Source: Phytohabitans houttuyneae (GTDB lineage Bacteria > Actinomycetota > Actinomycetes > Mycobacteriales > Micromonosporaceae). From it: a stretch of 64,000 nt of DNA. Both the position numbers and the translations under genes were made by a program. Position 1 is the first letter of the stretch. Every line of letters begins with the position of its first letter. Below, piece by piece: positions 24,035-51,328 of this stretch. A model generated the notes under the pieces. That model saw only the letters and a program-made list of their open reading frames with translations, ran no database searches and had not been told where the DNA came from. Location: assembly GCF_011764425.1 (NCBI RefSeq), contig NZ_BLPF01000004.1, forward strand, positions 186,001-250,000, written 5' to 3'.

Positions 24035-25477
24035 TCATTGCTGGCCCCACGTCGTCGTGGTGTCCCACCAGCCCTGCCGGCGTTGCAGCAGCCCCGGGTC
24101 GAAGCCGTGGTAGACCAGCTTCTCCATCAGGCCGGTGGACGGCGGCGCCCCGGGCACCGCCCGCCCATCCGGTCCAGGCCGGAAGACCTCGTTCGAGGCG
24201 ACCTGCAGGCCGTCCGCGTCGACGACCTCGCGGACGCTGGTAACGAACCGCCGCCCGTCGAGGGTGAGCCGAAGCTGGATGACCAAATGCAAACCTTCGG
24301 CGATGTGCAGGTTCGTCGTCGCCTGCTCCAACCGTTCGGGACTTTGCGCGGCGTACAGGGCGAGCTTGCGGAACACGCCGACGCTGGACGAGGCGTGGAT
24401 CGTCGACATCGAGCCGTCGTTGCCCTGCGACATAGCGTTCAACAACGGGATCACTTCGTCACCGCGGACCTCGCCCACGAACACCCGCGACGGCGACATC
24501 CGCAGCCCGTTACGGAACAGCATCGCCATCGTCACGGCACCTTCGCCTTCGACGTTCGCGTCCCGGGCCTGCATCGCGACCACGTTCGGGTGACGCTGCT
24601 TGTCCGCGTCGAAGCCGAGCTCGTAGGTATCCTCGATCGTGACCAGCCGCTCGTATGGCGGGATGGCGGAGGCGAGCCCGCGCAGGAACGTGGTCTTGCC
24701 GGCATTGGTCGGCCCACCCGCGACCATGTTCAACCGAGCCGCCACCGCCGCCCGTAGAAACTCGGCCAGGGCGGCGTCGATCGCGCCGAGCTGGAGTAGC
24801 TCGGGCAGGGTCATGGTCATGAACCGGTGCCGCCGGATCGACAGCGAGGGCCGCCTGGTCACGTCCATCACCGCGTTCAACCTGGACCCGTCCGGCAGCT
24901 GCAAGTTCAACATCGGTGCGGCACGGTCCCAGCGCCGCTCCTCATTACCAGTCCGCGCCGCCAGCACACGAACCAGCTCGACCATTTCCTCGTCGGAGTC
25001 GGCGATCGGGGCGACGCGTTGCTCCTGGTTGCCGGTGAAGGTGACGAAGACCTGGTCGCAGCCGTTGGCGACGATGCCCTCCACGTCTGGGCTGTTCAGC
25101 CACGGCTGCAAGCCACCGGCGCCCAGCAGCGTGTTGGTGACCGTGCGGGAGATGCGGGACTCGACCTGAGGATGCAGTCGCGCCCGGCCGCCGTCCATTT
25201 CGTCGGTGCCATACACGTCGAGCGCCTCGGTGACCAGGCGGCGGGTCAGCGCGTCCCGCTCCTGCGTGGGCATAGGCGTGCCGGTGGCGGTCTCGTGGGC
25301 GCGGGTGGCGCGGGTCAGCTGCTTGGCCACATCCTGGCGGATGCGGCGGACCAACGCCGCCTCGCCGCTTGGGTCGATGTCGCCGGTGGCCGAGTCGGGG
25401 TAGCCGTCCGGTCGGTGACCGTTGACCGTGCGCAGGCTTGCCTTGGCGACCGGGAACGCGGCGAACGGCTGGCTCAT
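24035..25477 (-). CDS. tadA: TadA/CpaF pilus assembly ATPase
   Basis: 480 aa from the ATG overlapping the previous stop (ATGA). CpaF-type secretion ATPase: N-terminal domain with LLGAGGLQPWLNSPDVEGIV, Walker A AGGPTNAGKTTFLR at ~253-266, Asp box LVTIEDTYELGF, Walker B RVFVGEVRGDEV, and the His box SMSTIHASSSVGV. Drives pilin extrusion through TadB/TadC. All catalytic motifs are intact. Confidence 0.9.
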   Translation of the reverse strand: MSQPFAAFPVAKASLRTVNGHRPDGYPDSATGDIDPSGEAALVRRIRQDVAKQLTRATRAHETATGTPMPTQERDALTRRLVTEALDVYGTDEMDGGRARLHPQVESRISRTVTNTLLGAGGLQPWLNSPDVEGIVANGCDQVFVTFTGNQEQRVAPIADSDEEMVELVRVLAARTGNEERRWDRAAPMLNLQLPDGSRLNAVMDVTRRPSLSIRRHRFMTMTLPELLQLGAIDAALAEFLRAAVAARLNMVAGGPTNAGKTTFLRGLASAIPPYERLVTIEDTYELGFDADKQRHPNVVAMQARDANVEGEGAVTMAMLFRNGLRMSPSRVFVGEVRGDEVIPLLNAMSQGNDGSMSTIHASSSVGVFRKLALYAAQSPERLEQATTNLHIAEGLHLVIQLRLTLDGRRFVTSVREVVDADGLQVASNEVFRPGPDGRAVPGAPPSTGLMEKLVYHGFDPGLLQRRQGWWDTTTTWGQQ

Positions 25478-26286
25478 CGGCGGGCCTCCGTCCTCGAGCG
25501 CGGGTCTTGACGGGCCGCGGTGCGCAGGAGCGGCGCCAGGTCGCCCAGCAGTCGATCCACGGCGACCAGCAGCGGCAGACGCCGCCACCGGCGCCCTGGG
25601 GCGAGGTCACCGTCGAGGACGCCGGCCGCCCGCCGATCGTGCGGCAGCGGCCCGGTGACCATCAGCAGCTCAGGGTCACGTGCCAGTTCGTCAGCCACGT
25701 AGCGGGTCAGCCAGTCTGCGACCTCATTGGCCGAGTACGCCCCGCCCGGGGTCAACGCGACCACCAGCCGGCCGACGGTCAGGTCAACCAGGTCGGCCAG
25801 TTGCTCCCTGAGGTGGGCCAGTTCGTCGGCGCGGGGGCGGGCCAGCACCATCACTACGTCTGAGGCGGCCAGCAGCGGCCGGGCCGGCGAGCCGGCATCC
25901 AGCCGGCCGCAGTCGGCCACGACCAGGCGGTCCGGCGGATTGAGGGCGGCCTGGCCAGGTCGGGTCAGCTCCGGTAGCGCGGCCCGGGTCTGCGCCCCAC
26001 CGGCCGGGGCGACCACCACCTCCACCGCCTGGTCGCGCACGTGCAACTGCTGCGCGCCGGCGGTGAACACTTCGCTGGTGCCTGCCTTCGGGCCGCGTGC
26101 GGCGGCGGCGAGGTCGACCACGCTCGGCCGCGCGGTCAGCCGGTGGCGGTGCATCAGGTCACCACCGGATGGGTCACACTCCACCAACACCGGGCGGGCC
26201 TGTGCCGGCGCGGCGAGGGCGGCGGCGAGTGCGGTGGTGGTGGCTCCGCCGTGTCCTTTGACGTAGGTGATCGTCAACAGCGCCAT
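25474..26286 (-). CDS. CpaE/TadZ-like MinD/ParA-family protein
   Basis: 270 aa. MALLTITYVKGHGGATTTAL is a divergent deviant Walker A: the signature Lys before Thr is replaced by Ala (GHGGATTT instead of GG.GKTT), though an early Lys remains. LVECDPSGGDLMHRH and RLVVADCGRLDAG match ParA-type switch regions. TadZ/CpaE proteins place the pilus machine at its site, and atypical Walker A motifs are common among them. Operon position between CpaB and TadA supports this. Confidence 0.75.
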   Translation of the reverse strand: MALLTITYVKGHGGATTTALAAALAAPAQARPVLVECDPSGGDLMHRHRLTARPSVVDLAAAARGPKAGTSEVFTAGAQQLHVRDQAVEVVVAPAGGAQTRAALPELTRPGQAALNPPDRLVVADCGRLDAGSPARPLLAASDVVMVLARPRADELAHLREQLADLVDLTVGRLVVALTPGGAYSANEVADWLTRYVADELARDPELLMVTGPLPHDRRAAGVLDGDLAPGRRWRRLPLLVAVDRLLGDLAPLLRTAARQDPRSRTEARR

Positions 26287-38578: not shown

Positions 38579-38767
38579 ATGGCACCCAAGGCTCGCGGCA
38601 GTTCGCCGCCGCTGGTCCGGGAGGACGAGTTGGTGCGGCTGCGGCACGTCTGGGTCGTGTTCGTGCTGACCCATGGCACCCATCCGGCCATCAAGCAGAC
38701 GGTCCTGGAAGCGGCGGCCCAGGCCGGTCGCCGGGTGCCGGGACCTCGGAAGGCATTGGAAGGCTGA
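38579..38767 (+). CDS. small hypothetical protein
   Basis: 62 aa from ATG 38579 (GTG 38576 directly before it is also possible), preceded by GGGGAGG. A basic start, then LVRLRHVWVVFVLTHGTHPA, a mildly hydrophobic helix, and a basic tail. Its stop overlaps the next start (TGATG). Unknown; perhaps a partner of the DNA glycosylase that follows. Confidence 0.5.
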   Translation: MAPKARGSSPPLVREDELVRLRHVWVVFVLTHGTHPAIKQTVLEAAAQAGRRVPGPRKALEG

Positions 38768-39579
38768 TGGACGGCGTCGACTACGTGATGAGCGAGCACC
38801 CCGGCTGGATACCAGCGCGGGACGGCGCGGCCCGGCTGCGGGTGCTGCCGATGGCCGACGGTGGCCGCTGGCTCGTCCAAGCCACCGACGAATCCTTCGC
38901 TCTACACGAGCTGGCAGCCAGCGCCGCCAAGCCGGCCGTGGACGTGTTCCGGCTGCCGCCAGAGGCGATCCGGGAGATGCCGCAGCTGGCCGGGGCCTTG
39001 GCTGGGCTCGGCGCGGTCGGCCGGTTCCGGACCAGCGATCTGTGGGAGGCGATCGGTACGGCCACCATCCGGCAGATGCACAAGGCCAGCCATGGTGCGA
39101 GGCTGTACCGCCAGTTCTGCCAAGCGCACGGCGAGCGGCTCGAGTTGCCCACCGGGGAAACCTGCTGGCTGTTTCCGACACCCGAGATCGTCCTGGGCCT
39201 CAAGCCCAAACACTTCGAAGCCGTCCGCTTGGGCACCAAGCGGGGGGTGCTGCGGGATGCCGCCACCGCCTACCGCCGCCACCACACCGACTGGCAGACA
39301 CTGCCGCCGCTACGCCTGGTCGAGGAGCTGCGCCGCATTCCCCGCGTCGGTCAGTGGACCGCTCACGCGGCGGTCAGCGACTTCAGCAACGACTGGGCGC
39401 TCTACCCCGGCGGCGACCAAACCCTGCGCACCTGGGCCCGCCGAGCCGCACCCGACTACGACTGGCCCACCAGCGAACGCGCCTTCCACAACTTCTGGCG
39501 CATGCTCACCCGCACCCACCTCGGCGTCGTCACCGCCCTGACCCTGGCCTGGGGCAACCGCCATGCCACCGACGGCTGA
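38767..39579 (+). CDS. HhH-GPD DNA glycosylase, AlkA-like
   Basis: 270 aa. Residues ~85-125 (FRTSDLWEAIGTATIRQMHK) match the start of the AlkA/OGG-type helical core. The helix-hairpin-helix is LVEELRRIPRVGQWTAHAAV at ~184-203, followed by the catalytic Asp (YPGGDQTLR, Asp217). These enzymes excise damaged or modified bases. It lacks the Cys cluster of EndoIII-type relatives. Being 2 kb upstream of a 7-deazaguanine operon, it may act on an unusual base, but that is speculation. Confidence 0.8.
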   Translation: MDGVDYVMSEHPGWIPARDGAARLRVLPMADGGRWLVQATDESFALHELAASAAKPAVDVFRLPPEAIREMPQLAGALAGLGAVGRFRTSDLWEAIGTATIRQMHKASHGARLYRQFCQAHGERLELPTGETCWLFPTPEIVLGLKPKHFEAVRLGTKRGVLRDAATAYRRHHTDWQTLPPLRLVEELRRIPRVGQWTAHAAVSDFSNDWALYPGGDQTLRTWARRAAPDYDWPTSERAFHNFWRMLTRTHLGVVTALTLAWGNRHATDG

Positions 39580-39913
39580 CCCCTCAAACGGCCGGTGGAA
39601 TGGCCACAGCGTCCTCGCCCTGCGGACTGCCGCTGGCATGCCGGGCCGGGACTTCGCCCGCACCCTCGGACTGAGCTGGCCCTACCTCAAGTCCTGGGAA
39701 AACGACCCCGCCGCCGTCATCGGCACCATAGCCGAAGCCGCCCTGGACACGTTCCTCACCCACACCGACAAGCAAACCCGGGCCGCCTTTCACGCCCTGC
39801 TCGCCCAGACCGGCTGCCCCTGCCACCCCCAAGCCGAAGCCAGCCACAGCCCCGCACCGCAGGTCTTCGCACCGACCATCCTGCCTACCGGAAGGAGCCA
39901 CCAGACACCATGA
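39563..39913 (+). CDS. XRE-like helix-turn-helix protein
   Basis: 116 aa, overlapping the glycosylase end by 17 nt. VLALRTAAGMPGRDFARTLG then LSWPYLKSWENDPAAVIGTI is an XRE-type HTH with the usual spacing. The C-terminal part is helical with two cysteines (TGCPCHPQ). It overlaps the MurC-like gene by 4 nt (ATGA), so it is co-translated and may regulate the downstream genes. Confidence 0.7.
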   Translation: MPPTADPSNGRWNGHSVLALRTAAGMPGRDFARTLGLSWPYLKSWENDPAAVIGTIAEAALDTFLTHTDKQTRAAFHALLAQTGCPCHPQAEASHSPAPQVFAPTILPTGRSHQTP

Positions 39914-41355
39914 CCAGCACCGTCCACCACGACCCGCTACACAACCGTGGCCCGATCAACCTGCACCGGCCGCACTTCGTCGGCATCGGCGAGCCCGCCA
40001 TGGCGGCACTGGCCCACATCTGCGCACAGCGCGGCTCCCTGGTCACCGGCTCACACCACACCGACAACCCCGCCCTGGCCGCGCTGCGGGCCGCGCACTG
40101 CCGCATCGAGCTCGTCCCGGACGCGATCCACGTGCACACCGCCACCTGCGTCGTCTACAGCACCGCCGCCGCCGACAGCCTCCCGGTGCACTCCGCGCGC
40201 GCCGCCGGCATCCCCGTCGTCCACCACGCTCAGGTCCTGGCCGCCCTCGTCGACGGCCGTCACCTCCTGGCCGTCGCCGGCACCCACGGCAAGAGCGTTA
40301 CCACCGGCATCCTCGCCCAGGCGCTGACCAAACTGGGCGCCGACCCCACCTACGCCATCGCCGCCGACCTGGACGCCCCCGGCTCCGGCGGCCACCACGG
40401 CACCGGCCGCCTCATGGTGGCCGAGACCGACGAATCCGACCGCTCCTTCCAACACTTACACCCCGACCTGGCCGTCATCACCGGCATCCACCACGACCAC
40501 CCCGACACCTACACAGACCTGGCCGACCACATCGACGCGCACACCGCCTTCGCCGCCAACATCCGCCCCGGCGGCATCCTGATCGTCAACGCCGACAACC
40601 CCGCCACCCTGGAAGTCGCCGGCCGCCTACGCGAGCAGAACCAACCCGTCACCATCGCCTCCTACGGCAAAGCCGACCACGCCACCGTCCGCATCCTCGG
40701 CATGCGCCGCACCGACCGGACCATGCGGGTCGACGTGCGCCGCGGCGACCAAGAGGTCGAGTTCGCCCTGGCTACACCGTCCATCGTGCACGCTCACGAC
40801 GCGGTGGCCGCGCTCGCAGCCCTGGCCGAGCTGGACTATCCGCTGGACGAAGCATTCGTCGCGGTGTCCGCGTTCACCGGCGTCGACCGCCGCTTCACCG
40901 AACTCGGCGAAGGCGGCGGCCGGCTCGTCATCGACAGCTACGCCGCCCACCCCGACCAAATCAGCGCCGACCTGGACACCGCCGACGCCCTCGCCGGCAA
41001 CCACAACGTCCTGGTCGTCTTCCAACCCTCCGGTGAGCGGGTCGCCGCGTTCGCCGACCAGATCGCCGGCGCCGTCACCGCCGGCGCCGACAAGATCGTC
41101 CTGCTGGACATCCACGGCCATCCGGCCCCCGGCTCCGGCGTCACCCGGCAGACCGTGGCGGACGCCATCAGCGCGGCGGGCGGCACCAGCTACCACGCCG
41201 CACCCGGCGGCCTGATCGACCTGGTCACCACACTCACCGAGCCCGGCGACATCGTCGTGACCATGGGCACCGGCGACGTCACCCACCACGCCCACGCCAT
41301 CCTCAACCACCTACGCCAACGCACCACCCTCGGCCGAGTAGGCGCGCCGATCTGA
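39910..41355 (+). CDS. MurC-like Mur ligase paralog
   Basis: 481 aa. Mur ligase architecture: N-terminal Rossmann domain (HFVGIGEPAMAALAHICAQR), ATP loop AVAGTHGKSVTTG at ~121-133 (Lys128 kept, the usual Thr after it is Ser), VAETDESDRSF, IHHDHPDTY, and the C-terminal domain (VIDSYAAHPDQISADL; VVFQPSGERVAAF). In true MurC these last read DDYAHHP and FQPHRYTRT, so the substrate-side residues have changed. The housekeeping gene would sit in the dcw cluster, so this is a specialised paralog, possibly joining an amino acid to an unusual sugar or nucleoside acid (inference). Confidence 0.75.
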   Translation: MTSTVHHDPLHNRGPINLHRPHFVGIGEPAMAALAHICAQRGSLVTGSHHTDNPALAALRAAHCRIELVPDAIHVHTATCVVYSTAAADSLPVHSARAAGIPVVHHAQVLAALVDGRHLLAVAGTHGKSVTTGILAQALTKLGADPTYAIAADLDAPGSGGHHGTGRLMVAETDESDRSFQHLHPDLAVITGIHHDHPDTYTDLADHIDAHTAFAANIRPGGILIVNADNPATLEVAGRLREQNQPVTIASYGKADHATVRILGMRRTDRTMRVDVRRGDQEVEFALATPSIVHAHDAVAALAALAELDYPLDEAFVAVSAFTGVDRRFTELGEGGGRLVIDSYAAHPDQISADLDTADALAGNHNVLVVFQPSGERVAAFADQIAGAVTAGADKIVLLDIHGHPAPGSGVTRQTVADAISAAGGTSYHAAPGGLIDLVTTLTEPGDIVVTMGTGDVTHHAHAILNHLRQRTTLGRVGAPI

Positions 41356-41757: not shown

Positions 41758-42366
41758 ATGACCATCACCACCGGAACCGGCGAACGTACGCCCTCGCCGG
41801 CCTCCAATGCGGACACCGACGTCTTCGCCGCAGTGGCCGCCGCAGAGTCGCTACTGTCCGCGCTCGGCCTCAACGGCGATACCGAACACACGCTGCGGAC
41901 GGCTGAACGCATGGTCGCGTCCTACCGCGACCTGTTGACCCCGAGACCGTTTGAGGCCACCACCTTCTCCAACCACGAGCTGCATCGAGACTTGGTTATC
42001 AGCCGGTCGGTGCCGTTCACATCGCTGTGCGCACACCACGTACTGCCGTTCATCGGTACCGCGACAGTCGGCTACCGGCCCGGGACGCGGCTGCTGGGCT
42101 TGTCGAAGCTGGCCCGGGTGGTGGAGATGTTCGCGTGTCGCCTGCAGGTTCAGGAGGACATGACCCAGCAGATCGCCGGCTGGCTGGACGAAACGGTGCC
42201 CGACCACGGCGGCGCCGGTGTCGTCATCACCGCCGAGCATCTCTGTATGACCATCCGGGGCGCGGAAGCTCGCGGCGCGTCAACGGTCACCACCGCCTGG
42301 CGCGGTGAACTCGCCCGCGACGCCGCGCTGCGAGCGGAATTCCTCAGCCTGGCAACGGACCGGTGA
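41758..42366 (+). CDS. folE: GTP cyclohydrolase I (preQ0 pathway)
   Basis: 202 aa. Converts GTP to 7,8-dihydroneopterin triphosphate, the first step of 7-deazaguanine synthesis. Zinc and catalytic residues are visible: SLCAHHVLPFIGTATVGYRP, LLGLSKLARVVEMFACRLQV and ITAEHLCMTIRGAEARGAS. The usual SxCEHH reads SLCAHH here. It is the first gene of the operon, with queC overlapping its stop by 4 nt (GTGA), which marks it as the pathway-dedicated copy and not the folate copy. Confidence 0.9.
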   Translation: MTITTGTGERTPSPASNADTDVFAAVAAAESLLSALGLNGDTEHTLRTAERMVASYRDLLTPRPFEATTFSNHELHRDLVISRSVPFTSLCAHHVLPFIGTATVGYRPGTRLLGLSKLARVVEMFACRLQVQEDMTQQIAGWLDETVPDHGGAGVVITAEHLCMTIRGAEARGASTVTTAWRGELARDAALRAEFLSLATDR

Positions 42367-43091
42367 CGACGATGACGAACCTCCAGCACCTCGTGAACCC
42401 GAAGGTCACCCACGCCGTAACGATCATTTCCGGCGGTCTGGACAGCACAGTCCTAGCCCACCTCCTACACCGCGGCGGGGCCAAACTGACGCTGCTGTCC
42501 TTCGACTACGGCCAGCGACACCGCACGGAGCTGGCCTACGCCCGCCGTACCGCCGAGGCTCTGGACGCGGAGCACCATGTGGTCGACCTGACTGGGCTGC
42601 TCGCTCTGCTGACCGGCTCGGCGTTGACCGACAGCAGTGTGGACGTCCCGGATGGGCACTACACCGATGCGGCGATGCGGGTAACAGTCGTGCCGAACCG
42701 CAACGCCATCATGCTCGACGTAGCGGTGGCCCGAGCTGTCTCTGTCGGCGCCGACGCGGTGGTGTTCGGTGCGCACGCCGGTGACCATCCGATCTACCCC
42801 GACTGCCGGCCCGTGTTCCTGCGCGCGTTCGAGCAGATGGCGGTGACGGCGAACGAAGGCTTTGCCCATCCGCGGTTTCGGGTGTTGGCCCCGTTCATCG
42901 ACCTGGCCAAGTCCGACATCGCCGCGATCGGTGCGCAGCTCGGGGTGCCGTTCGCGGATACCTGGTCCTGCTACAAGGGCGGCGCGGTGCATTGCGGCAC
43001 CTGCGGGACGTGCGTGGAACGCCGGGAGGCGTTCGAGGTGGCTGGGGTCGCCGACCCGACCATATACAGCCCGGCTGCGGAGGTGAGGTAG
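42363..43091 (+). CDS. queC: 7-cyano-7-deazaguanine synthase QueC
   Basis: 242 aa (GTG 42363, or ATG 42372). ATP-dependent conversion of 7-carboxy-7-deazaguanine to preQ0. PP-loop SGGLDST at residues 23-29, FDYGQRHRTEL, and the zinc site SCYKGGAVHCGTCGTCVERR near the C terminus, all intact. The next start lies 0 nt after its stop. Confidence 0.95.
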   Translation: MTTMTNLQHLVNPKVTHAVTIISGGLDSTVLAHLLHRGGAKLTLLSFDYGQRHRTELAYARRTAEALDAEHHVVDLTGLLALLTGSALTDSSVDVPDGHYTDAAMRVTVVPNRNAIMLDVAVARAVSVGADAVVFGAHAGDHPIYPDCRPVFLRAFEQMAVTANEGFAHPRFRVLAPFIDLAKSDIAAIGAQLGVPFADTWSCYKGGAVHCGTCGTCVERREAFEVAGVADPTIYSPAAEVR

Positions 43092-43469
43092 ATGTACCGG
43101 ATCGGTAAGCGGTTCCGGTTCGAGGCCGCGCATTCGCTGCCCGGCCTGCCGGACGGCCATAAGTGCGCCCGATCGCACGGGCACAGCTACAGCGTCGAGA
43201 TTACCCTCACGACGGAGGACCTGCACGGCCCGGGGTTCGTGGTCGACTTCGCCGATCTGGCCGGCCTTGGCGCGTATCTGGACGGTTCCTTCGATCACCG
43301 TGACCTGGACACGGTGCTCGACGTCCCGGCGACCAGCGAGAACCTGGCCCGGCACCTGTACTGCTGGTGCGTGGAACATCTTGACCTGCCCGCCGGCGTC
43401 CGTATCGAGACGGTGCGCGTCTCGGAGACAGCGTCCACGTTCGCCGAGTACGCGCCGGCCATGCCATGA
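43092..43469 (+). CDS. queD: 6-carboxytetrahydropterin synthase QueD
   Basis: 125 aa. FRFEAAHSLPGLPDGHKCAR and SHGHSYSVEITL provide the three zinc histidines and the catalytic Cys. VVDFADLAGLGAYL, the FDHRDLD loop and ETASTFAEYAP complete the family pattern. Makes CPH4 from dihydroneopterin triphosphate. Overlaps queE by 4 nt. Confidence 0.95.
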   Translation: MYRIGKRFRFEAAHSLPGLPDGHKCARSHGHSYSVEITLTTEDLHGPGFVVDFADLAGLGAYLDGSFDHRDLDTVLDVPATSENLARHLYCWCVEHLDLPAGVRIETVRVSETASTFAEYAPAMP

Positions 43470-44182
43470 CTGCGGCGACCGCCTCGGGTCCGCCGTTGCT
43501 GGTCGCGGAGGTGTTTGGCCCAACGTTGCAGGGCGAGGGGCCGAGCTGCGGCCAGCAGGCGTTGTTTGTGCGGTTGTCGCGCTGCAACCTGTCCTGCCCC
43601 AGCTGCGACACCCCCTACACCTGGGATCGGTCGCGGTTCGACCTTCGCCAGCACACCGAGCGGCGTACGGCGGCATCGCTGATCTCCTGGGCGCTGGCCT
43701 ACCCGACCCCGCTGGTGGTGATCAGCGGCGGCGAGCCCCTACTCCAGCAGGACCGCATCCTGCCAATCGTGGCCGCGTGGACGGCGGCGGGACGACGCGT
43801 CGAGATCGAAACGAACGGCACCGTCAGCCCATCGCCGGAGCTTGTGGACCAGGTCGCGGCGTTCAACGTCTCCCCGAAACTGGCGGCCTTCGCCGCCGAC
43901 CGTGACGTCGACCGTCGGATCAACCCGGCCGCCCTGGCGGCGCTGGCCGCGTCCGGGAAATCGGTGTTCAAGTTCGTGGCCGGCAGCATCGGCGATCTCG
44001 ACGAGATCGGCGACCTCGTCACGCGGTTCGGGCTGGCCCCGGTGTGGGTGATGCCCGAAGGCATCACCAGCGAGGTCATCGTGGCCCGGATGCGGGACCT
44101 GGCCGATGCGGTGGTGGCCCGGGGCTGGAACCTGACCACGCGCCTGCATGTGCTGCTGTGGGAGGACACCCGTGGCCGCTGA
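43466..44182 (+). CDS. queE: 7-carboxy-7-deazaguanine synthase QueE (radical SAM)
   Basis: 238 aa. LQGEGPSCGQQALFVRLSRC starts the radical SAM domain; the iron-sulfur motif is CNLSCPSCDTPYTWD (Cys-X3-Cys-X2-Cys). VISGGEPLLQQDRILPIVAA and ETNGTVSP follow, as in QueE. Turns CPH4 into CDG. The reverse-transcriptase gene starts inside its 3' end, so the two are translationally linked. Confidence 0.95.
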   Translation: MTAATASGPPLLVAEVFGPTLQGEGPSCGQQALFVRLSRCNLSCPSCDTPYTWDRSRFDLRQHTERRTAASLISWALAYPTPLVVISGGEPLLQQDRILPIVAAWTAAGRRVEIETNGTVSPSPELVDQVAAFNVSPKLAAFAADRDVDRRINPAALAALAASGKSVFKFVAGSIGDLDEIGDLVTRFGLAPVWVMPEGITSEVIVARMRDLADAVVARGWNLTTRLHVLLWEDTRGR

Positions 44183-45131
44183 CACCGGATCGCCAGGTGG
44201 GCTTGGACGGGGCCGTCGTTCCCGCCGTACCGAGCCGCGCGTGTCGGGAAGCGGCCCTACGGGCGTGATGCGTAGCGGGATCGTTCCTGCCGTCCAAGCA
44301 ACCTCGACGATAGTGCATCCGCCGCCGGCCGCGCACTCCCTGATGCCGTACCTCGTGGACGTCCGGCATCTGATGGCCGCCGCGCGGCTGTGCATGCGTC
44401 GCGCGTCGGCGCCCGGCGTGGACGGGCTCACCTGGGCCGGCTACCGCCAGGGCCTACGCGACCGCCTCGCCGTCCTCGCCGGACAGCTCCGGTCAGGCGA
44501 ATGGACACCGGATCCGCTGCGGGAGGTTGCCATCACTGCGTTCACCGGGAAGGTGTTCACGGCGGCGATACCCACGGTGCAGGACCGCATCGTGCACCGC
44601 GCGATGCGGCTGGCTCTTGATCCGATCCTCGAACAGCGGGTGTTGCGCGACTGGGTGTCGGCGTACCGGCCCGGCCGCAACCGGATCACCGCACTACGCC
44701 AAGCCGACGTCCACATCGGTGCCGGACGAGCGTGGCTCGCGGACATCGACGTCGCCGGAGCATCGGCCGGCGGCAACGTCGGGCAGTTCGTGGACTGGCT
44801 CGCCGCCTACGTCACGGACGGGACGTTCCTGGCGGTGTTCCGCCGTGCCCTGCTCGGGTTGCCCACACCGCTGGTGCCCGGCAGTGGACTGTGGCCGGTG
44901 CTGTTCCACCTGCGACTGTCGCAGGCCGACGCGGTCCTCGACGGCCGACCGCTGGTGCGGTTCGCCGACAACTACATCGCCTTTACCACCAGCCGAGCCG
45001 AAGCCGTCGAAGCGTTCGACGCGATCACCGCCGCGCTCGCACTTGTGGACCTGGAACCGAATGCACGCAAGAGCAGCATCCGGCCACCGCACCTGGCCAA
45101 CCCGGAAGACCTCTTCCTCATCGACGGCTGA
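44172..45131 (+). CDS. divergent group-II-intron-like reverse transcriptase
   Basis: 319 aa from GTG 44172, chosen because GGAGGA lies 8 nt upstream; it overlaps queE by 11 nt. RT blocks in order: RRASAPGVDGLTW (RT1, IDG-type), AITAFTGKVFTAAIPTVQDR IVHRAM (RT2, GK.R.L.IPTV.DRI), WVSAYRPGRN, motif A LADIDVAGAS (Asp191 kept, the FFD tail lost), GLPTPLVPGSGLWPVLFHLR (motif B position), motif C VRFADNYIAF (residues 264-267, usual YADD now FADN). No maturase X or endonuclease domain. The loss of the second motif C Asp and of FFD questions ordinary DNA synthesis, although GDN occurs in active negative-strand RNA polymerases. Placement within a preQ0 operon is the oddity. Confidence 0.8.
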   Translation: MAADTGSPGGLGRGRRSRRTEPRVSGSGPTGVMRSGIVPAVQATSTIVHPPPAAHSLMPYLVDVRHLMAAARLCMRRASAPGVDGLTWAGYRQGLRDRLAVLAGQLRSGEWTPDPLREVAITAFTGKVFTAAIPTVQDRIVHRAMRLALDPILEQRVLRDWVSAYRPGRNRITALRQADVHIGAGRAWLADIDVAGASAGGNVGQFVDWLAAYVTDGTFLAVFRRALLGLPTPLVPGSGLWPVLFHLRLSQADAVLDGRPLVRFADNYIAFTTSRAEAVEAFDAITAALALVDLEPNARKSSIRPPHLANPEDLFLIDG

Positions 45132-45147
45132 AAGGAGGCGTTGCCCC

Positions 45148-45720
45148 ATGCCCGACTCCACGGCCGAGACGGTCCACTGGGTGTTGGTTCCCGGCGGCAT
45201 CTGCCGCTACGGCGACGCCGCCAAGCCCCGCGTCGTGGCTGACCTGCTCGTCGCACGGACTCCGCTGACGGCGCGTCAAACCAGTCACGACGATCGCGCC
45301 GCCCTCCCGGTCACCGGCGTCGACCATGCCGAGGCCGTCCGTCTGGCGGCCGAGGTCGGCGGCCGGCTGCCCACGTCGGTGGAGTGGGAATGGATCGCCG
45401 CCGGGTCAGAACGCCGCCCGTACCCGTGGGGCGAGGCGCCTTGGACACCCGAGCGGGCCGTACTGACCGCTGAGGGCAGCACGCTGTACGGACCGCAACC
45501 GGTCGGCCAGCATCCCGCCGGAGCCACCCCGGACGGGGTGCTCGACCTCGCCGGCAACGTCTGGGAATGGACTGCCAGCCAGGTCATGGGAGGCGGATAC
45601 ATCATCCGCGGCGGCTCCTACGCCTCCAAGCCGCTGTACGCCCGGACCACGTTCCTCAACGCCGCACCCGCGCAGCGGCGCAGCCCCGGCATCTCCGTAC
45701 GACCGGTGAGAACAGCATGA
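45148..45720 (+). CDS. minimal FGE-sulfatase (C-type-lectin-fold) domain protein
   Basis: 190 aa from ATG 45148, with AAAGGAGG upstream. FGE/SUMF1 pattern: HWVLVPGG, LPVTGVDHAEAVRLAAEVGG, RLPTSVEWEWIAAGSERRPY PWGE, GVLDLAGNVWEWTAS, GGGYIIRGGSYAS and a C-terminal ISVRPV. It is shorter than true FGE, and only one Cys (residue 19) is present. The C-terminal Cys pair needed to oxidise sulfatase Cys is absent, so formylglycine formation is unlikely. A binding or scaffold role is more likely; target proteins of diversity-generating retroelements use this fold and also lie beside an RT. Confidence 0.85.
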   Translation: MPDSTAETVHWVLVPGGICRYGDAAKPRVVADLLVARTPLTARQTSHDDRAALPVTGVDHAEAVRLAAEVGGRLPTSVEWEWIAAGSERRPYPWGEAPWTPERAVLTAEGSTLYGPQPVGQHPAGATPDGVLDLAGNVWEWTASQVMGGGYIIRGGSYASKPLYARTTFLNAAPAQRRSPGISVRPVRTA

Positions 45721-46214
45721 GCAGACAACACATCGAACCGGTCACCCCAGCGAATCCGACTCAGACCGATCCCGCCCGGCAGCTGGTCATCGTCGGCTGC
45801 TCGGCCGAGAAGACCGCCACCCGCGAACCCCTGCCGGCGCTCGAACTCTACGACGGTGGATGTGTCCCGCCGCTGCGCGCACGCCTAGGCCGCCTACCCC
45901 GGCTCCGCGCCCGCGTACGGTTCCTGTCCGCCCAACACGGCCTGATCACCGCCGACACCCCACTGCACACCTATGACCGGCCCCTCGATGCGGCCCGCGC
46001 CGCCGAGCTGCGCCCACCGGTGTGGGCTCGGCTACGGGCGCAGCTGCGGGAGACCGGCATGCCCACCGACATCCTCGTCATCGCCGAACCGCTGTACCTC
46101 GTCCTCATCGCCGATCTACTCGCGGCGCCCGAACGGCCCCGCGTGCACTGGATCCCCGACCACGCCCACGGCTGGCCACACGCAGCCGCCGTCCTCGACC
46201 GTTGGAAGTGGTAG
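45717..46214 (+). CDS. DUF6884-like protein
   Basis: 165 aa, ATGA-coupled to the FGE-like gene. LVIVGCSAEKT near residue 24, ALELYDGGCVPPLRARL, RVRFLSAQHGLITADTPLHT and YDRPL match the DUF6884/YaaA-like pattern (GCS..K, SA.HGL..PD, YD..L). These occur in phage and mobile regions; the biochemical function is unknown. The ordered Cys, Lys, His and Asp residues could form a nucleotide- or base-binding site. Its place after the preQ0 genes makes a 7-deazaguanine-handling role conceivable (inference). Confidence 0.65.
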   Translation: MSRQHIEPVTPANPTQTDPARQLVIVGCSAEKTATREPLPALELYDGGCVPPLRARLGRLPRLRARVRFLSAQHGLITADTPLHTYDRPLDAARAAELRPPVWARLRAQLRETGMPTDILVIAEPLYLVLIADLLAAPERPRVHWIPDHAHGWPHAAAVLDRWKW

Positions 46215-46217
46215 CCC

Positions 46218-47249
46218 ATGGCCAACACCCTGGCGCAGGCCATCGCCGCGCAAGACAACGACCACACCACCATCACCCGCGACTTCCACAAGCGCACCGG
46301 GCTGGACTGGCACGCGCCCACCCCCGCACGTCTCGCGGACGGCAGCCGGCTCAGCGTCGTCATCCCCACCCACAACAACGCCCACAGCCTGCCAGCGGTC
46401 CTCGACGCCCTCGCCGCACAGACCGCCGCCGACGTCGAGGTGATCGTCATCGACGACGCGTCCACCGACACCACACCACAGATCATCCAGGAGCACCCGG
46501 CCGTCGATCTGGCGCTCCGACTTGCCCACAATGTTGGTGGTCCAGCCGCCCGCAACGTCGGCGCGCACCTTGCCGGAGCAGACACCCTCGTTCACATGGA
46601 CGCGGACATGGTCCTGCCAAACCACGTCCTGGCCGACATCGCCGCCCGAGCCCGGCCCGACGTCGTCCTGGTCGGCTTCCGACACAACCTCGCGCACCAG
46701 CTCGGCGACGACAACCGTCCGGTCATCCCCGCCGAAGAACCGGACCTGGAAGCCGACCACCGGGTGCGGTGGAACGCGCCAGCCGGCGTGCCGATGTTCT
46801 ACTCAGGCCAGGTCTACGACCACGCCTTCGTCGGCCGCCCGCTCGATGACACCCAAGATTTCATCGACCTGGGCAACGGGCGCACCTACCACGACTGGGA
46901 CCTGCCGCGCATGGTCGTGACCGCGCTCGTCGCCGTGCCCCACGCCGCGTTCACGGCCGTCGGTGGCTTCCACCCCGGTTTCAGCGCCGACGGGTGGGGC
47001 TGCGATGACACCTACCTTGGGGCCGCGCTCATCGGCCACGGCTGCAAAGTCGTCCCGCTCCGGCAGGCCGGAGGCTGGCACCTCGACCCGCCCGACGCTG
47101 ACGCCGCGTGGAAAGCCAAGTTCGCGACCCTGCCAACCCGGGTCACGCTGTTGCGGCACCTGCTGACCCAACCCGCGCCCACAGCCGAGCAGGAAGACCT
47201 CACCCGGCGGGCCATGGCCCTGATCGAAGAGGCGGCCACGCTGACATGA
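46218..47249 (+). CDS. family 2 glycosyltransferase
   Basis: 343 aa. GT-A fold: LSVVIPTHNNAHSLPAVLDA, VEVIVIDDASTDTTPQIIQE, HNVGGPAARNVGAHLAGADT, the metal site HMDADMVLP, and GGFHPGFSADGWGCDDTYLG, which supplies the acceptor-base Asp pair. Transfers a sugar from a nucleotide sugar to an unknown acceptor. Its stop overlaps the radical SAM start (ATGA). Confidence 0.85.
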   Translation: MANTLAQAIAAQDNDHTTITRDFHKRTGLDWHAPTPARLADGSRLSVVIPTHNNAHSLPAVLDALAAQTAADVEVIVIDDASTDTTPQIIQEHPAVDLALRLAHNVGGPAARNVGAHLAGADTLVHMDADMVLPNHVLADIAARARPDVVLVGFRHNLAHQLGDDNRPVIPAEEPDLEADHRVRWNAPAGVPMFYSGQVYDHAFVGRPLDDTQDFIDLGNGRTYHDWDLPRMVVTALVAVPHAAFTAVGGFHPGFSADGWGCDDTYLGAALIGHGCKVVPLRQAGGWHLDPPDADAAWKAKFATLPTRVTLLRHLLTQPAPTAEQEDLTRRAMALIEEAATLT

Positions 47250-48177
47250 GACGCACCTTCGCCTCCCACCGCTACCTGGTCCACGACCCAGCCACCGGGA
47301 TGACCCACCGCGCCCCCGACCCGCAGCCCACCGGCCGCATCATCCTGGACGACACGATCGTCGCGTCCTGGCCCGTCCCGGCGGCGGCCGACCTTGACCG
47401 GCACACGCCGGCGAGTGTCTGCTGGTCGCCGATCGTGCGATGCAACCTGCACTGCCCCAGTGCCTCGATGACACCACCGTGCCCGAACTCTCCGCCATGG
47501 AACGGCACCGGATCGCCGGCGTACTCGCCGAAGTTGAGCTGCTCGGCGTCGACATTTCCGGCGGCGAGCCGCTGCTGCTACGCGACCTGACCACCCTCGC
47601 ATCGACCATCCGCGACGGTGGGCGCAGCGTCGTCTCGGTGACCACCAACGGCTGGCACCTCGCCCGCCGCGCACCAGAGCTGGCCCGGTGCCTCGACGCG
47701 ATCCGGATCAGTCTCGACGGCCCCGACCCGGCACGCCATGACGCCATCCGAGGCGCGGGCAGTTTCGCCCGAGCCACCGACGGTATCCGCGCCGCGGTCG
47801 CCGAGGGCATCCCCGTGCAGATCCAAACCGTGCTCATGCACCGCACCGCCGAGACCCTGCAAGACCTGGTCGACCTGGCACACGGCATCGGCGCGAATGG
47901 TTTCACCGCCCTGCAGATGCTGCCCATCGGAGCCAGCGCCGCCCTCTCCACCGAAATGCTCACCGATGAGCAAGCCAGGCGAGTGTTCGCCGCGCTGCGG
48001 GTGCCGCCCGGCCTGCGGGTCAGACTGCGCACCCGCGACGCCGCCGGCAACTTCACCGTCATCCGCGCCGACGGCCGAGTGTGGCGCAACACCATCAGCG
48101 CACTGAGCATCGGCGGCCTCCATCCACTGCGCGGCGCCACCGATCTCATCCTGACCAGCAGGGACGGCACCGCATGA
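47246..48177 (+). CDS. radical SAM/SPASM-like enzyme, frameshifted
   Basis: Starts at ATG 47246. The frame breaks exactly in the iron-sulfur motif. The 5' frame reads CWSPIVRCNLHCP and then fails; the 3' frame reads QCLDDTTVPELSAMERHRIA. Adding one C to the C4 run near 47454-47457 gives RCNLHCPQCLDD (Cys-X3-Cys-X2-Cys) and a ~310-aa protein. VDISGGEPLLLRDL, VTTNGWHL and RISLDGPDPARHDAIRG are classical radical SAM strands. The C-terminal part lacks an obvious Cys-rich SPASM cluster. Substrate unknown; position suggests modification of the deazaguanine or sugar product. Confidence 0.8.
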
Positions 48178-48749
48178 CCGACGCCCCCGGCATCGCATCG
48201 AGGCGGTTCCGTCACGAGCGGCTCCTGGTCATGACCCTGCCCGCCTACGAGCACGCCGTCCGCCTGCTCGCCGCTGCCGCCGAGGCCCGGTTCGCGCCGG
48301 TCAGCGCGGTCGTCGCCATCGCTAACGGCGGTCTGGTCCCGGCCGGCGGTATCAGCGGTGTTCTCGACGTCCCGAACTATCGGCTCACCGCCCAACACAA
48401 CCCGACCGACGCGATCTACACCGAAGCCACCGGCCACGTCACCTGCGACCTGAGTCCCCTGGCCGCAGCGCTGGGCGGCCAGCAACTCGGCGGCACCGTG
48501 CTCCTCGTCGACGACATCTGCGGCAGCGGCGCAACCTTCACCGCCGTGCAGTCGGCGCTGCATCCCCACCTGCAACTGGAGACGGTCGTGCGCACCGTCG
48601 CGCTGTGCCGCAACGCCGGCACCAGCCTCGACCCGGACCTGTGGGTGTGGACGGTGGACGACTGGGTGTGCTTTCCCTGGGAGCCACCGTCGCGTACCGA
48701 AGCCGCGGTCGAGGAGTTGCCCATCCTCGAGCGGGTGGAACCAGCATGA
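48174..48749 (+). CDS. purine-type phosphoribosyltransferase
   Basis: 191 aa, ATGA-coupled. VVAIANGGLVPAGGISGVL is the pyrophosphate loop, TVLLVDDICGSGATF (108-122) the PRPP loop, and the end VWTVDDWVCFPWEPP resembles xanthine/hypoxanthine PRTases. Such enzymes join a base to ribose-5-phosphate. Beside a preQ0 pathway the base may be a 7-deazaguanine, as in toyocamycin-type clusters, which also encode a PRTase (established for that pathway; inference here). Confidence 0.8.
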   Translation: MTDAPGIASRRFRHERLLVMTLPAYEHAVRLLAAAAEARFAPVSAVVAIANGGLVPAGGISGVLDVPNYRLTAQHNPTDAIYTEATGHVTCDLSPLAAALGGQQLGGTVLLVDDICGSGATFTAVQSALHPHLQLETVVRTVALCRNAGTSLDPDLWVWTVDDWVCFPWEPPSRTEAAVEELPILERVEPA

Positions 48750-49845
48750 GCACCGTCGCGTTCGTCCTGGTGTCCTGGCGCCCGGACGTCCCCGCCGGCA
48801 TGGAGCGCGCCGTCGCCGCGCACGCCGCAGCTCTGACCAAGGCCGGGCACAAGGCCGTCATCGTGACCGCCGACCCTGCGGCGCCGCGCACCTACCGGGC
48901 CGCGACCGTCACCACGATCACCGCGCTGTGCGGCACGTTCCCCTGCGACGACACCACCCTGCGTACCGCAATCCACCACGGCACGGACGCACTGCGGCGG
49001 GAGCTGGTCACCGTCTTCGCCCGCGAACGAGTCGACGTCGCCGTCTACGTCGACGCGCTCTGGGGCTGGGCAGCATCATGCCCCACCGCCCGCAGACACG
49101 AAACGTCCTCGCGGCCCACGTCATGGGCCACGACACCGATCTCCGCGCCGCACTAGCCCTTGAACCAGCGGCGGTCATCGTTCCGTCCGCGACGGTCCTG
49201 GCGCAGGCCACCGAACGCGGCTACGACAGCTCCACCTGGAAGATCGTCCCCAACACGCTGCTCACCGAGCCCGAACCGCAGCCGCAACGCGTCCGCGACC
49301 ACCTGCACCAGCACGGCCCCATCCGCGTCCTCGCCAGGCTCGGCCCGGAGAAGGGTGTGGCCGCGCTGCTCGCACCCCGCAACCGGCTCGACCGGCCCAT
49401 CGAGGTCGCCCTGGCCAAGGCCCCGTTCGAGGCCACTGCCGGCAGCCAAGACGAACTGCTCCGCAAATGTCAGGCGCTTGCCGCCGACACGCCCGGCGTC
49501 GCCATCCAACCGGGCCTGAACTGGGACGACGTCCTGGCCTGGCTCGGCGGCGCGAGCCTGGTCATCGTGCCTTCCCACGCCGAGACCTTCGGCCTCGTCG
49601 CGCTGGAAGCCATGGCCGCGGGCACGCCGGTCGTCGCGCACGACGTCGGGAACCTGCCCGCCCTCATCGGCGATGGCGGGATACTCGTGCCACACCACCA
49701 CGGCGCGACGGGGCTGTGGCGCGCCTCCCGAGAACTGCTCAGCGACGCGGTAACCTACCGGCGAACCTCACGGGCCGCGTACTACCGCTCGCGGGACTAT
49801 TGGCCCGCCCTTGTCGCTAACCAACTGTTAAAGGTGGTGAGCTGA
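48746..49845 (+). CDS. family 4 glycosyltransferase, frameshifted
   Basis: Start ATG 48746 (ATGA overlap). The 5' frame (STVAFVLVSWRPDVPAGMER ... VDVAVYVDALWG) and the 3' frame (LGSIMPHRPQTRNVLAAHVM ... VVS) join if the G4 run at 49062-49065 had one more G, giving ~366 aa. GT-B features: N-terminal AGMERAVAAHAAALTKAGHK and the C-terminal SLVIVPSHAETFGLVALEAM AAGTPVVAHDVGNLPALIGD (E-x7-E). MshA-like enzymes of this class pair with PIG-L deacetylases; a PIG-L gene is two genes downstream. A rare TTA codon lies near the 3' end (49828). Confidence 0.8.
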
Positions 49846-50717
49846 TGGGCGGATCTGTCCTGCCCTCCGCACCCAACACACCCGCGCTGCTGCTCGTGGA
49901 CGGCCACAACCTGCTCTGGGGCGCCACGTTCGGCTTTCCTGCCGAAATCCGCTCCCGGGACAAGACCCGCCTCCTGACCGGCCTGTTCGGGTTCTTCGCC
50001 CTCCTCCGCGTCGCCATCCGCGAAGACCTACCCGAACCGCCCGAAGTCATCGTGGTCTTCGACGGCCAATACGGCGGCAGCGACCGCCAAACCATCGACC
50101 CGTCCTACAAGGCCCAACGCCCCACCGACGCCGCCGCGCTCGCCCCCATCCAGTTCCTACCCGACGTCAAACGCGGCCTCACCCACTGCGGCATCACCTG
50201 GACCGAACTCGACCACGCCGAAGCCGACGACGTCATCGCCGCCCTCGTCCACACCACCCCGCCACCGCGGCCAATCCTGCTCATGTCCCGAGACCGCGAC
50301 TACTACCAACTCGTCACCGACCGCGTCAGCGTCCTCAACACCAAAATGCGCTCCGGCCACCGCCACATCGGCCCCGCCGACGTCTACGCCCGCTACCAAG
50401 TCACCCCAACCCAATGGGCCGACTACCGCGCCCTGACCGGAGACCCCGCCGACAACATCCCCGGCGTACGAGGCATCGGCGCCAAAACCGCCGCCACCCT
50501 CCTCGCCGACGGACTCACCCTCGACCACCTCGACAAATCAGGCCGACTCGATACCGGCCGAGGCCAAGCCGTCCGCGAACAGTTCGAGCTCGCACTCAAA
50601 TGGCGCGACATGATCCGCCTCGACCACACCATCGCCGTACCCGTAACCCCCACGGGACAAGTCAGCCCGCTGCTGCCGCGCCCAGCCGACGTCATCGAAG
50701 CCCTCGACCTATGGTGA
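49845..50717 (+). CDS. 5'-3' exonuclease / FEN family nuclease
   Basis: 290 aa, TGATG overlap with the GT4 stop. It resembles the N-terminal nuclease domain of DNA polymerase I standing alone: LLLVDGHNLLW, VIVVFDGQYGG, LDHAEADDVIAALV, LLMSRDRDYYQLV, and the helix-hairpin-helix LTGDPADNIPGVRGIGAKTA. All carboxylates for the two-metal site are present. Cuts 5' flaps or RNA/DNA ends. A structure-specific nuclease in this operon argues for a nucleic-acid role for at least part of it. Confidence 0.85.
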   Translation: MGGSVLPSAPNTPALLLVDGHNLLWGATFGFPAEIRSRDKTRLLTGLFGFFALLRVAIREDLPEPPEVIVVFDGQYGGSDRQTIDPSYKAQRPTDAAALAPIQFLPDVKRGLTHCGITWTELDHAEADDVIAALVHTTPPPRPILLMSRDRDYYQLVTDRVSVLNTKMRSGHRHIGPADVYARYQVTPTQWADYRALTGDPADNIPGVRGIGAKTAATLLADGLTLDHLDKSGRLDTGRGQAVREQFELALKWRDMIRLDHTIAVPVTPTGQVSPLLPRPADVIEALDLW

Positions 50718-51328
50718 CCTCATCCATCCTGTTGACCGTGATGGCCCACCCCGACGACGCGGAACTCTGGGCCGGCGGCGCCATCGCACGCCACGTCCAA
50801 ACCGGCGGGTCGGCGACAGTCGCCGTCACGAAACACGACCCGATCCGGGCCAGCGAGGCCACCAACGGCGCACAGATCCTCGGCGCTGACATTTACCTCG
50901 ACGACGAACTCACGCCTGCCACCATCAGCACGCTGCTGACCGAAGTCCGACCGGACATCGTCATCACCCACTCGACCGACGACATCCACCCCGAACACCG
51001 GCAATGCGCCGAACGCGTCCTCGCCGCGCTACCCGACATCGTCATCACCACCGGACACCCAAGTCGGGTCTACCACTGCGACAGCTACAACAACCTCGAC
51101 CAACACGGCAAACCGCTGCACCTGCCCACCATCATCGACATCACCGATCAATGGCCAACCAAGACCGCCGCTCTGAAAGCCCACACATCACAACCGATCG
51201 TCAACCACTTCGGGCCAATGTCCGAAACCCTGTCGCGACTCCACGGCATGCGAATCGGCACCACGCACGCCGAAGCCTTTCGCCCCCTGCCCGTCCTCGG
51301 CCGCCTGCCGGCCACCGAAAGTCTCTGA
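50711..51328 (+). CDS. PIG-L family deacetylase
   Basis: 205 aa from ATG 50711, overlapping the nuclease by 7 nt. LTVMAHPDDAELWAGGAIAR is the zinc motif AHPDD, and ITHSTDDIHPEHR gives the third zinc ligand and catalytic region. ASEATNGAQILGADIYLDD is the family's R..E....LG helix variant. Removes N-acetyl groups from GlcNAc-type sugars (MshB, LmbE family). With the GT4 it suggests glycosylation by GlcNAc followed by deacetylation. Last gene of the coupled run. Confidence 0.85.
   Translation: MVTSSILLTVMAHPDDAELWAGGAIARHVQTGGSATVAVTKHDPIRASEATNGAQILGADIYLDDELTPATISTLLTEVRPDIVITHSTDDIHPEHRQCAERVLAALPDIVITTGHPSRVYHCDSYNNLDQHGKPLHLPTIIDITDQWPTKTAALKAHTSQPIVNHFGPMSETLSRLHGMRIGTTHAEAFRPLPVLGRLPATESL

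Follow-up and report, generated by a model that had tools for sequence, protein, structure and literature searches.

Here we describe an operon of 13 genes in a 64,000-nucleotide stretch of the 11.3 Mb genome of the actinomycete Phytohabitans houttuyneae (G000:C4:186001-250000, hereafter the window), which lies on the plus strand at positions 41758-51328 and reads, with near-gapless junctions, folE-queC-queD-queE-RT-FGE-DUF6884-GT2-rSAM-PRTase-GT4-FEN-PIG-L. The genes of preQ0 synthesis are joined in it to genes for a reverse transcriptase (RT)-fold protein, a protein of the formylglycine-generating enzyme (FGE) fold, a DUF6884 protein, two glycosyltransferases (GT2 and GT4), a radical SAM enzyme (rSAM), a phosphoribosyltransferase (PRTase), a FEN-type 5'-nuclease and a PIG-L deacetylase, and a conserved hairpin lies in the N-terminal part of the RT frame. 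Comparison with related loci shows that the operon is a conserved system rather than a chance adjacency, and that its RT gene is under purifying selection. The interpretation that we favour, tentatively and at somewhat less than an even chance, is that of a mobile conserved operon directing the formation of a glycosylated 7-deazaguanine nucleotide, with a nucleic-acid module of its own (the RT fold, the hairpin and the FEN nuclease) to which the DUF6884 protein possibly belongs.

Besides the window, the core gene set was found in 31 loci, and one more (L123) was reached through the hairpin. In a sample of 250 genomes from the family of the host, an RT search at E 1e-5 gave some RT match in 70 genomes, 12 of which form a distinct clade (700-212 bits, the next match scoring 71). 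The 11 other clade loci and a locus on an Embleya megaplasmid were compared, and all 12 hold the gene set, the Embleya locus with gaps. When an 84,980-species collection was scanned with the RT alignment, 22 loci were obtained, of which three come from genomes already found. The cluster is present in all 22 and is cut by a contig end in two or more of them; the count is a lower bound because the scan relies on two short peptide patterns. The hosts belong to the Micromonosporaceae, Thermomonosporaceae, Streptosporangiaceae, Nocardiopsidaceae, Pseudonocardiaceae and Streptomycetaceae (one genus checked in each), with one unplaced metagenome-assembled genome. The co-occurrence across genera that the original prediction, made from the letters of this stretch, had proposed as a check is thus borne out, the clusters being spread over six actinomycete families. 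When all 32 loci are tabulated together, with the RT present by construction, the FGE, DUF6884 and GT4 proteins and a PIG-L protein occur at every locus, the PRTase and FEN at all but one each, and the preQ0 genes less regularly (Table 1).

The loci fall into two architectures. Type I (23 loci) has the order (folE) queC (queD queE) RT FGE DUF6884 GT2 rSAM PRTase GT4 FEN PIG-L, with the rSAM in 23/23 and the GT2 in 22/23. Type II (nine loci) comprises que genes, DUF6884, PRTase, PIG-L, WbqC, FGE, GT4, RT, a second GT4 and FEN in varying order; folE and the PRTase are each present in eight of the nine, as is FEN (one contig ends), while WbqC and the second GT4 occur in all nine type II loci and in no type I locus. 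Among the type II loci, L042 additionally bears, at 305-3505 of the opposite strand, a further, partial cassette made up of queC-GT2-rSAM-PRTase and, at 6317-6874, an Rv2179c-like 3'-5' exoribonuclease gene adjoining FEN. Extra genes that look transposase-like by eye break up the cluster in L034 (6906-8045) and L033 (7660-8241), which are closely related and belong to one genus.

As a converse test, further parts of the cluster served as queries against the 250 family genomes. Some FGE-domain match was obtained in 200 of them, among which one ortholog group stands out (422-123 bits, next 72), and the RT clade, the FGE orthologs and the hairpin mark an identical set of 12 genomes. DUF6884 marks the same 12 and one distant singleton (G249), around which the 20 kb taken contain nothing else of the cluster and whose hairpin scores are at chance level. 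A hairpin-model search of 394 genomes of the class gave four matches. One is the window's own genome, and the cluster is present in each of the remaining three: L050 and L063, already known, and L123, which is new and of type I without folE. Furthermore, out of 396 genomes sampled from the phylum, 24 match the RT profile at E 1e-30, and only the window's own scores as a clade member (497 bits versus 107-150). Protein distances of the RT correlate with those of FEN (r 0.94), FGE (0.91), GT4 (0.91), PIG-L (0.89), DUF6884 (0.86), the PRTase (0.84), QueC (0.76), QueE (0.75) and QueD (0.69); the comparison lacks an outside control gene, which detracts from it as support for linkage. The dN/dS ratio of the RT is 0.16-0.38 over ten pairs, like that of its neighbour genes. 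The original prediction had held that the link would be chance if relatives kept the que genes without RT, FGE and FEN: no ortholog was found in an RT-less cluster by the reverse searches with FGE, hairpin and DUF6884, the que genes themselves not having served as queries. These reverse searches contradict chance adjacency, as do the occurrence of the same genes in two reshuffled architectures, the one-to-one linkage in 250 genomes and the correlated divergence. Hitch-hiking on a mobile element, the related explanation, would draw on the apparent mobility of the clusters described next; we consider either explanation extremely improbable.

The clusters look horizontally mobile, with a patchy distribution. 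A region of 20.9 kb around the cluster is 99.99-100% identical in L056, L057 and L060, from records of two Amycolatopsis species (A. tucumanensis and A. echigonensis) and one Prauserella (P. flavalba), which reflects either recent transfer or mislabelled assemblies. A megaplasmid of Embleya, among the best 20 of 2452 plasmid matches, holds a cluster, and the best places found for the RT in the plasmid and phage collections are all less than 60% identical. A phage origin was rejected: no RT relatives were found in viral contigs, and 19 viral contigs with an 18-nt motif of the hairpin gave no match to the hairpin model.

The hairpin, about 97 nt long, lies within an open frame and precedes the RT in type I clusters and the FGE gene in type II clusters. 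Of 33 loci (the 32-locus table and L123), 32 have it; the remaining one, L047, is cut by a contig end and starts within the RT gene. In the window the covariance model matches 44195-44319 with 113.5 bits. The RNAalifold consensus of 26 sequences has 29 pairs, 14 of them with two-sided change. Its cells are paired in 92.4%, compared with 36.4-50.9% in slid controls, and it shows 112 two-sided cells and a covariation score of 0.370 against 14-30 cells and scores of 0.060-0.130 in those controls; none of 500 shuffles reaches its covariation score, paired percentage or two-sided cells. The model also recovers L034, L036 and L039, which were unused in building it and are close to members that were used. 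Out of 22 sources searched with it, 20 hold one copy; none was found in L043 (outside the cluster) and none in L047. No hairpin outside a cluster was seen in the samples searched (the 250 family and 394 class genomes). Neither the window nor four loci gave an Rfam match at gathering cut-offs, and a relaxed search of 44120-44400 returned only one microRNA and one small RNA family, both matching the opposite strand with scores well below the cut-off; a known RNA family was therefore rejected, and the covarying hairpin family absent from Rfam looks new.

Several observations on the element weigh against our interpretation of it. The number of pairs with two-sided change (14) is close to that in shuffled alignments (12.5) and is reached by 39 of the 500, and its 36 pair types (36.9 in shuffles) are reached by 390. 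When six members were folded alone, z was -1.6, +0.6, -1.7, -3.6, -2.9 and +0.3, only two of the six being clearly better than shuffles. The same pairs score 92.4% on the plus strand and 88.0% on the minus strand; the energies of the whole alignment and the mean single-sequence energies favour plus, whereas the group consensus favours minus in three of four groups. The element may act as an RNA of the plus strand, as an RNA of the minus strand or as single-stranded DNA. In addition, it stands before FGE and not before the RT in all nine type II clusters, and simple self-regulation of the RT therefore fails to cover all clusters.

The open frame through the hairpin runs on into the RT (17/17) or into FGE (9/9) with a possible start codon upstream. 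The hairpin is probably also translated, because it lies in this frame and its length (88, 91, 94, 97 or 103 nt) is one more than a multiple of three in 25 of 26 cases. Conservation of the peptide as the sole cause was rejected, since the second codon position is not the best conserved in the hairpin (mean entropies by codon position are 0.70/0.92/1.02 bits there and 0.83/0.70/1.19 bits in the RT core) and since L053 retains the hairpin despite a shift in part of its frame.

The RT-fold protein matches PDB entry 5hhj at E 3.5e-40, and its AlphaFold2 model (mean pLDDT 81.9) aligns with the GsI-IIC RT at a TM score of 0.73, a root-mean-square deviation of 2.2 and 26% identity. Residues 1-49, which overlap the hairpin, are disordered in the model, and the folded core begins at about 44334. 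The thumb/maturase domain is absent: the protein ends just past motif D, and both the profile match and the model stop before the thumb. By sequence and predicted fold, the protein is the domesticated, thumbless fingers-palm part of a group II-intron RT. The residues at the motif positions of all 32 clade copies were compared with those of 29 RTs from outside the clade, which are group II-like by similarity and partly incomplete. The motif-A Asp193 is kept throughout (32/32 and 29/29), as is Lys300 (32/32, and 26/26 of the other RTs covering it). Five residues past Asp193 the clade has Ser, Thr or Ala in all 32 copies where the other RTs have Phe (28/29); the motif-B Gln is found in 0/32 (others Gln in 24 and Glu in 3 of 29), and on its upstream side motif B is shortened by about 11 residues. 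The second motif-C Asp (position 267) is Asn in 32/32, giving DN in place of the DD expected of a canonical RT, with Asp in 26/26 of the others covering it. In the fingers, the Lys is present in 0/32 (others Lys in 26 and Arg in 3 of 29) and the Arg in 1/32 (L031; others 29/29). Asp191 is kept in 31/32; the exception, Val in L034, counts against the general retention, and this locus may be decaying because of the Val at RT position 191 and the interrupting genes. From general knowledge of polymerases we take the motif-A Phe to be the steric gate and the fingers residues to contact the triphosphate. Processive DNA synthesis is doubtful because the motif-A Phe, the motif-B Gln, the fingers Lys and the thumb are lost, and the protein is unlikely to act as an ordinary DNA polymerase. 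An RT altered in this manner, with DN in motif C and losses in motif A, motif B and the fingers, looks new.

The group II intron RTs (GsI-IIC, E. rectale, R. intestinalis) thus share the fingers-palm fold and sequence ancestry with the operon RT and differ from it in the thumb/maturase domain and in the motif-A, -B and -C residues. No group II intron RNA was matched in Rfam at gathering cut-offs in the window and four loci. With neither a maturase/thumb domain nor an intron RNA, the operon was not assigned to the group II introns.

In gene order, the 12 junctions of the operon read from the sequence measure -4, 0, -4, -11, +16, -4, +3, -4, -4, -4, -1 and -7 nt (Table 1). The junctions of the relatives are just as tight, the seeming gaps before rSAM and GT4 there being due to partial query pieces, and the QueE-RT overlap is 11 nt in 14 of the 14 loci where both genes adjoin. 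The CX3CX2C motif of QueE is kept in 24 of 25 aligned rows. The genes and coordinates of the original prediction are confirmed, and its reading of them is upheld in part; it had overlooked the hairpin in the first part of the RT frame, the changes in the active site of the RT and two frameshifts. Relative to the closest relative, L032, where rSAM and GT4 are each one intact frame (rSAM protein, PF04055 3e-16), the window has a 1-nt gap near 47458 in rSAM and another near 49066 in GT4, so that neither is a single open frame here; sequencing or assembly error and early decay would look alike in the sequence.

Table 1. Features of the operon in the window, with profile matches (E-values) and occurrence in the 32-locus table
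Feature	Position	Strand	Profile match or remark	Occurrence
folE, GTP cyclohydrolase I, preQ0 step 1	41758..42366	+	PF01227 7.5e-51	19/32
queC, 7-cyano-7-deazaguanine synthase	42363..43091	+	PF06508 3.3e-63	30/32
queD, CPH4 synthase (QueD/PTPS)	43092..43469	+	PF01242 5e-28	25/32
queE, 7-carboxy-7-deazaguanine synthase, radical SAM	43466..44182	+	PF04055 2.4e-9	25/32
RT-fold protein	44172..45131	+	RVT_1 3.4e-7; TIGR04416 9.9e-28, under its cut-off	by construction
Hairpin element, stems P1, P2, P3	44202..44298	+ (coordinates)	inside N-terminal RT frame	
FGE/SUMF1-fold protein	45148..45720	+	PF03781 (FGE-sulfatase) 2e-22	32/32
DUF6884 protein	45717..46214	+	PF21818 3.2e-7	32/32
GT2 glycosyltransferase, type I clusters	46218..47249	+	PF00535 1.8e-21	22/23 type I
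rSAM enzyme, type I clusters	47246..48177	+	PF04055 7.4e-15 on downstream piece	23/23 type I
PRTase	48174..48749	+	PF00156 5.7e-12; xanthine-PRTase-like 1.5e-7, under cut-off	31/32
GT4 glycosyltransferase, MshA-like	48746..49845	+	PF00534 8e-18; GT4-conflict 7.2e-10; MshA 1.1e-17, under cut-off	32/32
FEN-type 5'-nuclease (Pol I 5'-nuclease domain)	49845..50717	+	PF02739, PF01367; N and C domains 8.7e-28, 1.9e-16	31/32
PIG-L deacetylase, BshB/MshB-like	50711..51328	+	PF02585 1.9e-13; BshB1 8.7e-15, under cut-off	32/32

Upstream of the operon, positions 38767-41355 hold a MurC-like ligase gene (TIGR01082 1.5e-82, under cut-off) preceded by a small gene and a gene of 270 amino acids (38767-39579). 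None of the three has a match in the 12 relative loci, and they were left out of the system; sequence conservation 5' of the first gene is only local. Farther upstream, at 23098-25588, lie genes for a Type II/IV secretion ATPase and a T2SSF protein, and several flanks of Pseudonocardiaceae loci carry similar secretion genes, as judged by eye.

The FEN protein keeps D19, D73, E126, D128, D129, D150, D152, D200 and D203 in 31/31 copies, acids that we take to bind metal, and it has both domains, as expected of a true nuclease. No Cys or His of the FGE-fold protein is conserved at the 93% level, so that it is unlikely to generate formylglycine; by predicted fold it comes closest to two biosynthesis proteins, CalU17 (calicheamicin) and ToxD (toxoflavin). 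GT4 and PIG-L resemble enzymes of mycothiol and bacillithiol synthesis, under the family cut-offs. The DUF6884 protein retains CxxxK and LSAxxG, the motifs that Pfam names for its family according to the part of PMC11701544 concerned. The relevant passages of the GATOR-GC paper assign the DUF6884 Pfam domain to DpdC (PMC11888242), and those of a BREX survey, where DpdC is the enzyme that hydrolyses dPreQ0 to dADG, name PF03883 for it (PMC12839542). The operon protein has the Pfam match with both motifs, and PADLOC at E 0.001 gave no DpdC match for it, a point to be set against the possible DpdC-like role considered below.

The proximity of the RT to an FGE fold might suggest a diversity-generating retroelement (DGR) or its relic, with the FGE-fold protein as the variable product, all the more as the FGE-sulfatase domain is a common DGR target in the sections of PMC8934634 concerned. 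The C-terminal region of the FGE-fold protein is conserved, though, and the operon RT matches RTs of group II much better than those of DGRs. This candidate was rejected, since no template/variable repeat pair was found at the FGE 3' end among the best 20 of 46 repeat families, and we give it hardly any credence.

With regard to the fate of preQ0, a tRNA-guanine transglycosylase (TGT) over cut-off was found in one of 12 family cluster genomes (one in G120, none in the window's own). A relative of DpdA, the transglycosylase of Dpd islands, was found in one of 15 cluster genomes and in 10 of 180 genomes of the family sample, the window's own included, by a search with one query at E 1e-5 that could miss very divergent forms. 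The one cluster genome is the window's own: the absence of TGT and DpdA noted in the original prediction holds for the operon, and a separate Dpd island, outside its view, lies some 66 kb beyond the window (G000:C4 from about 311600; L128), with DpdA (316150-317385, 4.3e-187), DpdB (1.8e-97) and its own queC, queE and queD. That this island has que genes of its own points to a dedicated preQ0 supply in the operon. Thus no known transglycosylase was detected in most of these hosts, and the PRTase is the one predicted nucleotide entry that the operon shows. Dpd islands (DpdA-K) resemble the operon in their preQ0 genes and, if DpdC has the Pfam domain given for it in PMC11888242, in a DUF6884-domain protein; the operon differs in its PRTase, glycosyltransferases, PIG-L, RT, FEN and hairpin and in having neither DpdA nor DpdB, and without DpdA it was not counted as a Dpd system.

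FolE, QueD, QueE and QueC lead to preQ0 by established chemistry. All four are present in the operon together with the PRTase, the gene combination looked for as a mark of toyocamycin-type clusters, which here concerns presence only. In the pathway that we favour the four enzymes would make preQ0, and the PRTase would join it with phosphoribosyl pyrophosphate (PRPP) to give a nucleotide without a TGT-type base exchange. The DUF6884 protein, by analogy with the DpdC/YaaA family, may act on the 7-cyano group or recognise the base in nucleic acid. As in mycothiol and bacillithiol synthesis, GT4 would add an amino sugar that PIG-L deacetylates, and GT2 with rSAM (type I) or WbqC with the second GT4 (type II) would yield two product variants. 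Group II RTs bind their intron RNA near their own start codon; PMC3594303 contains related passages on group II intron-protein binding. By this analogy the operon RT most likely binds the conserved hairpin, and RT and FEN may constitute one nucleic-acid step in which the nucleotide is built, handled or released on nucleic acid. At the Embleya locus (L031) no PRTase was found, which speaks against a general PRTase entry; a nucleoside 2-deoxyribosyltransferase-like gene (18174-18674, PF05014 5.1e-18) lies there directly after FEN and possibly provides a replacement entry step.

The product of the pathway may be either a small molecule or a nucleic-acid mark, and both models of the original prediction, a pyrrolopyrimidine glycoside and a nucleic-acid modification or defence system, are serious rivals of our interpretation. 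A purely small-molecule cluster for a pyrrolopyrimidine glycoside, in which the RT fold would serve as an enzyme or scaffold, FEN in self-protection and the hairpin in cis control, would agree with the two tailoring sets round one core, as often in natural-product families, with the kinship of the FGE fold to CalU17 and ToxD, with the altered motif-A, -B, -C and fingers positions of the RT and with a hairpin at the start region in frame with the next gene. It accords less well with a nuclease that retains its acidic residues and both domains, with a hairpin confined to the cluster in the samples searched, and with the lack of a transporter or regulator among the 13 Pfam-scanned genes, and we regard it as rather unlikely. 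A modification or defence system, in which RT and FEN would build the preQ0 nucleotide into DNA or RNA (in a nick-translation-like patch or onto the hairpin RNA), followed by its glycosylation for self-marking or phage blocking, has against it the losses in motif A, motif B, the fingers and the thumb, which make processive DNA synthesis doubtful. Furthermore, no restriction effector was recognised within the operon, and PADLOC, with 10 of the 13 proteins scanned, reported no complete system, its matches being limited to generic RT and viperin-like radical SAM ones and weak ones to Cas1-RT and UG17. Despite the presence of RT, FEN and a DpdC/YaaA-type DUF6884 protein in one operon, the patchy, mobile distribution, and the absence of a DpdA relative from 14 of 15 cluster genomes, which calls for another way in, we consider this alternative unlikely; some deazaguanine phages may make modified deoxyguanosine triphosphate for their own polymerase, as stated in part of PMC6884629, which would lend it some precedent. 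It is also conceivable, but in our estimation quite improbable, that the hairpin is a carrier RNA held by the RT, on which the preQ0 nucleotide would be placed and then tailored by the radical SAM enzyme, the glycosyltransferases and the deacetylase before FEN releases it. With the motif-A Phe lost, the RT fold would in that event have room for ribonucleotides or bulky nucleotides, and such an assembly, if true, would parallel the natural products that are assembled on a carrier peptide, with RNA in the place of the peptide.

Returning to the glycosylated 7-deazaguanine nucleotide with its nucleic-acid module, we compared the operon with further known systems, none of which shares its gene make-up. 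Presumably the PRPP-dependent nucleotide step of the toyocamycin/sangivamycin (toy) and tubercidin (tub) clusters is the analogue of the operon PRTase. These clusters likewise have preQ0-pathway genes, as described in the corresponding part of a review (PMC12648386). The operon differs from them in that no adenylosuccinate-type gene was found among its 13 genes by the Pfam scan and in that GT2/GT4, PIG-L, FGE, RT, FEN and the hairpin are added. The huimycin (hui) cluster of Kutzneria albida also combines preQ0 genes with a glycosyltransferase, proposed to add N-acetylglucosamine; its gene table has a regulator, a methyltransferase and one glycosyltransferase, and no PRTase, PIG-L, RT or FEN (PMC7439116, in the parts concerned). 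Retrons, DRT/UG systems and DGRs resemble the operon as RTs linked to a conserved structured element, in contrast to which the operon has its element before FGE in type II, a motif C other than DD and PADLOC matches limited to generic RT and weak UG17 ones. A literature search gave no description of such a cluster among the matches listed, its partial coverage being no proof that the cluster is unpublished, and two bacterial RT surveys and one QueC-family survey do not mention it in their searched parts.

Most likely, the nucleic-acid module of RT fold, hairpin and FEN is what sets the cluster apart from toyocamycin-, tubercidin- and huimycin-type clusters. The operon ties an RT fold, a covarying hairpin family absent from Rfam and a Pol I-type nuclease to a 7-deazaguanine pathway, and in most of the hosts examined no transglycosylase, whether of the tRNA-queuosine or of the Dpd kind, was detected beside it. 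A small nucleotide as the product would mean an unusual assembly, and a nucleic-acid mark would mean a new route for the entry of deazaguanine. Either way, a catalytically altered RT is retained in what looks like a biosynthetic operon.

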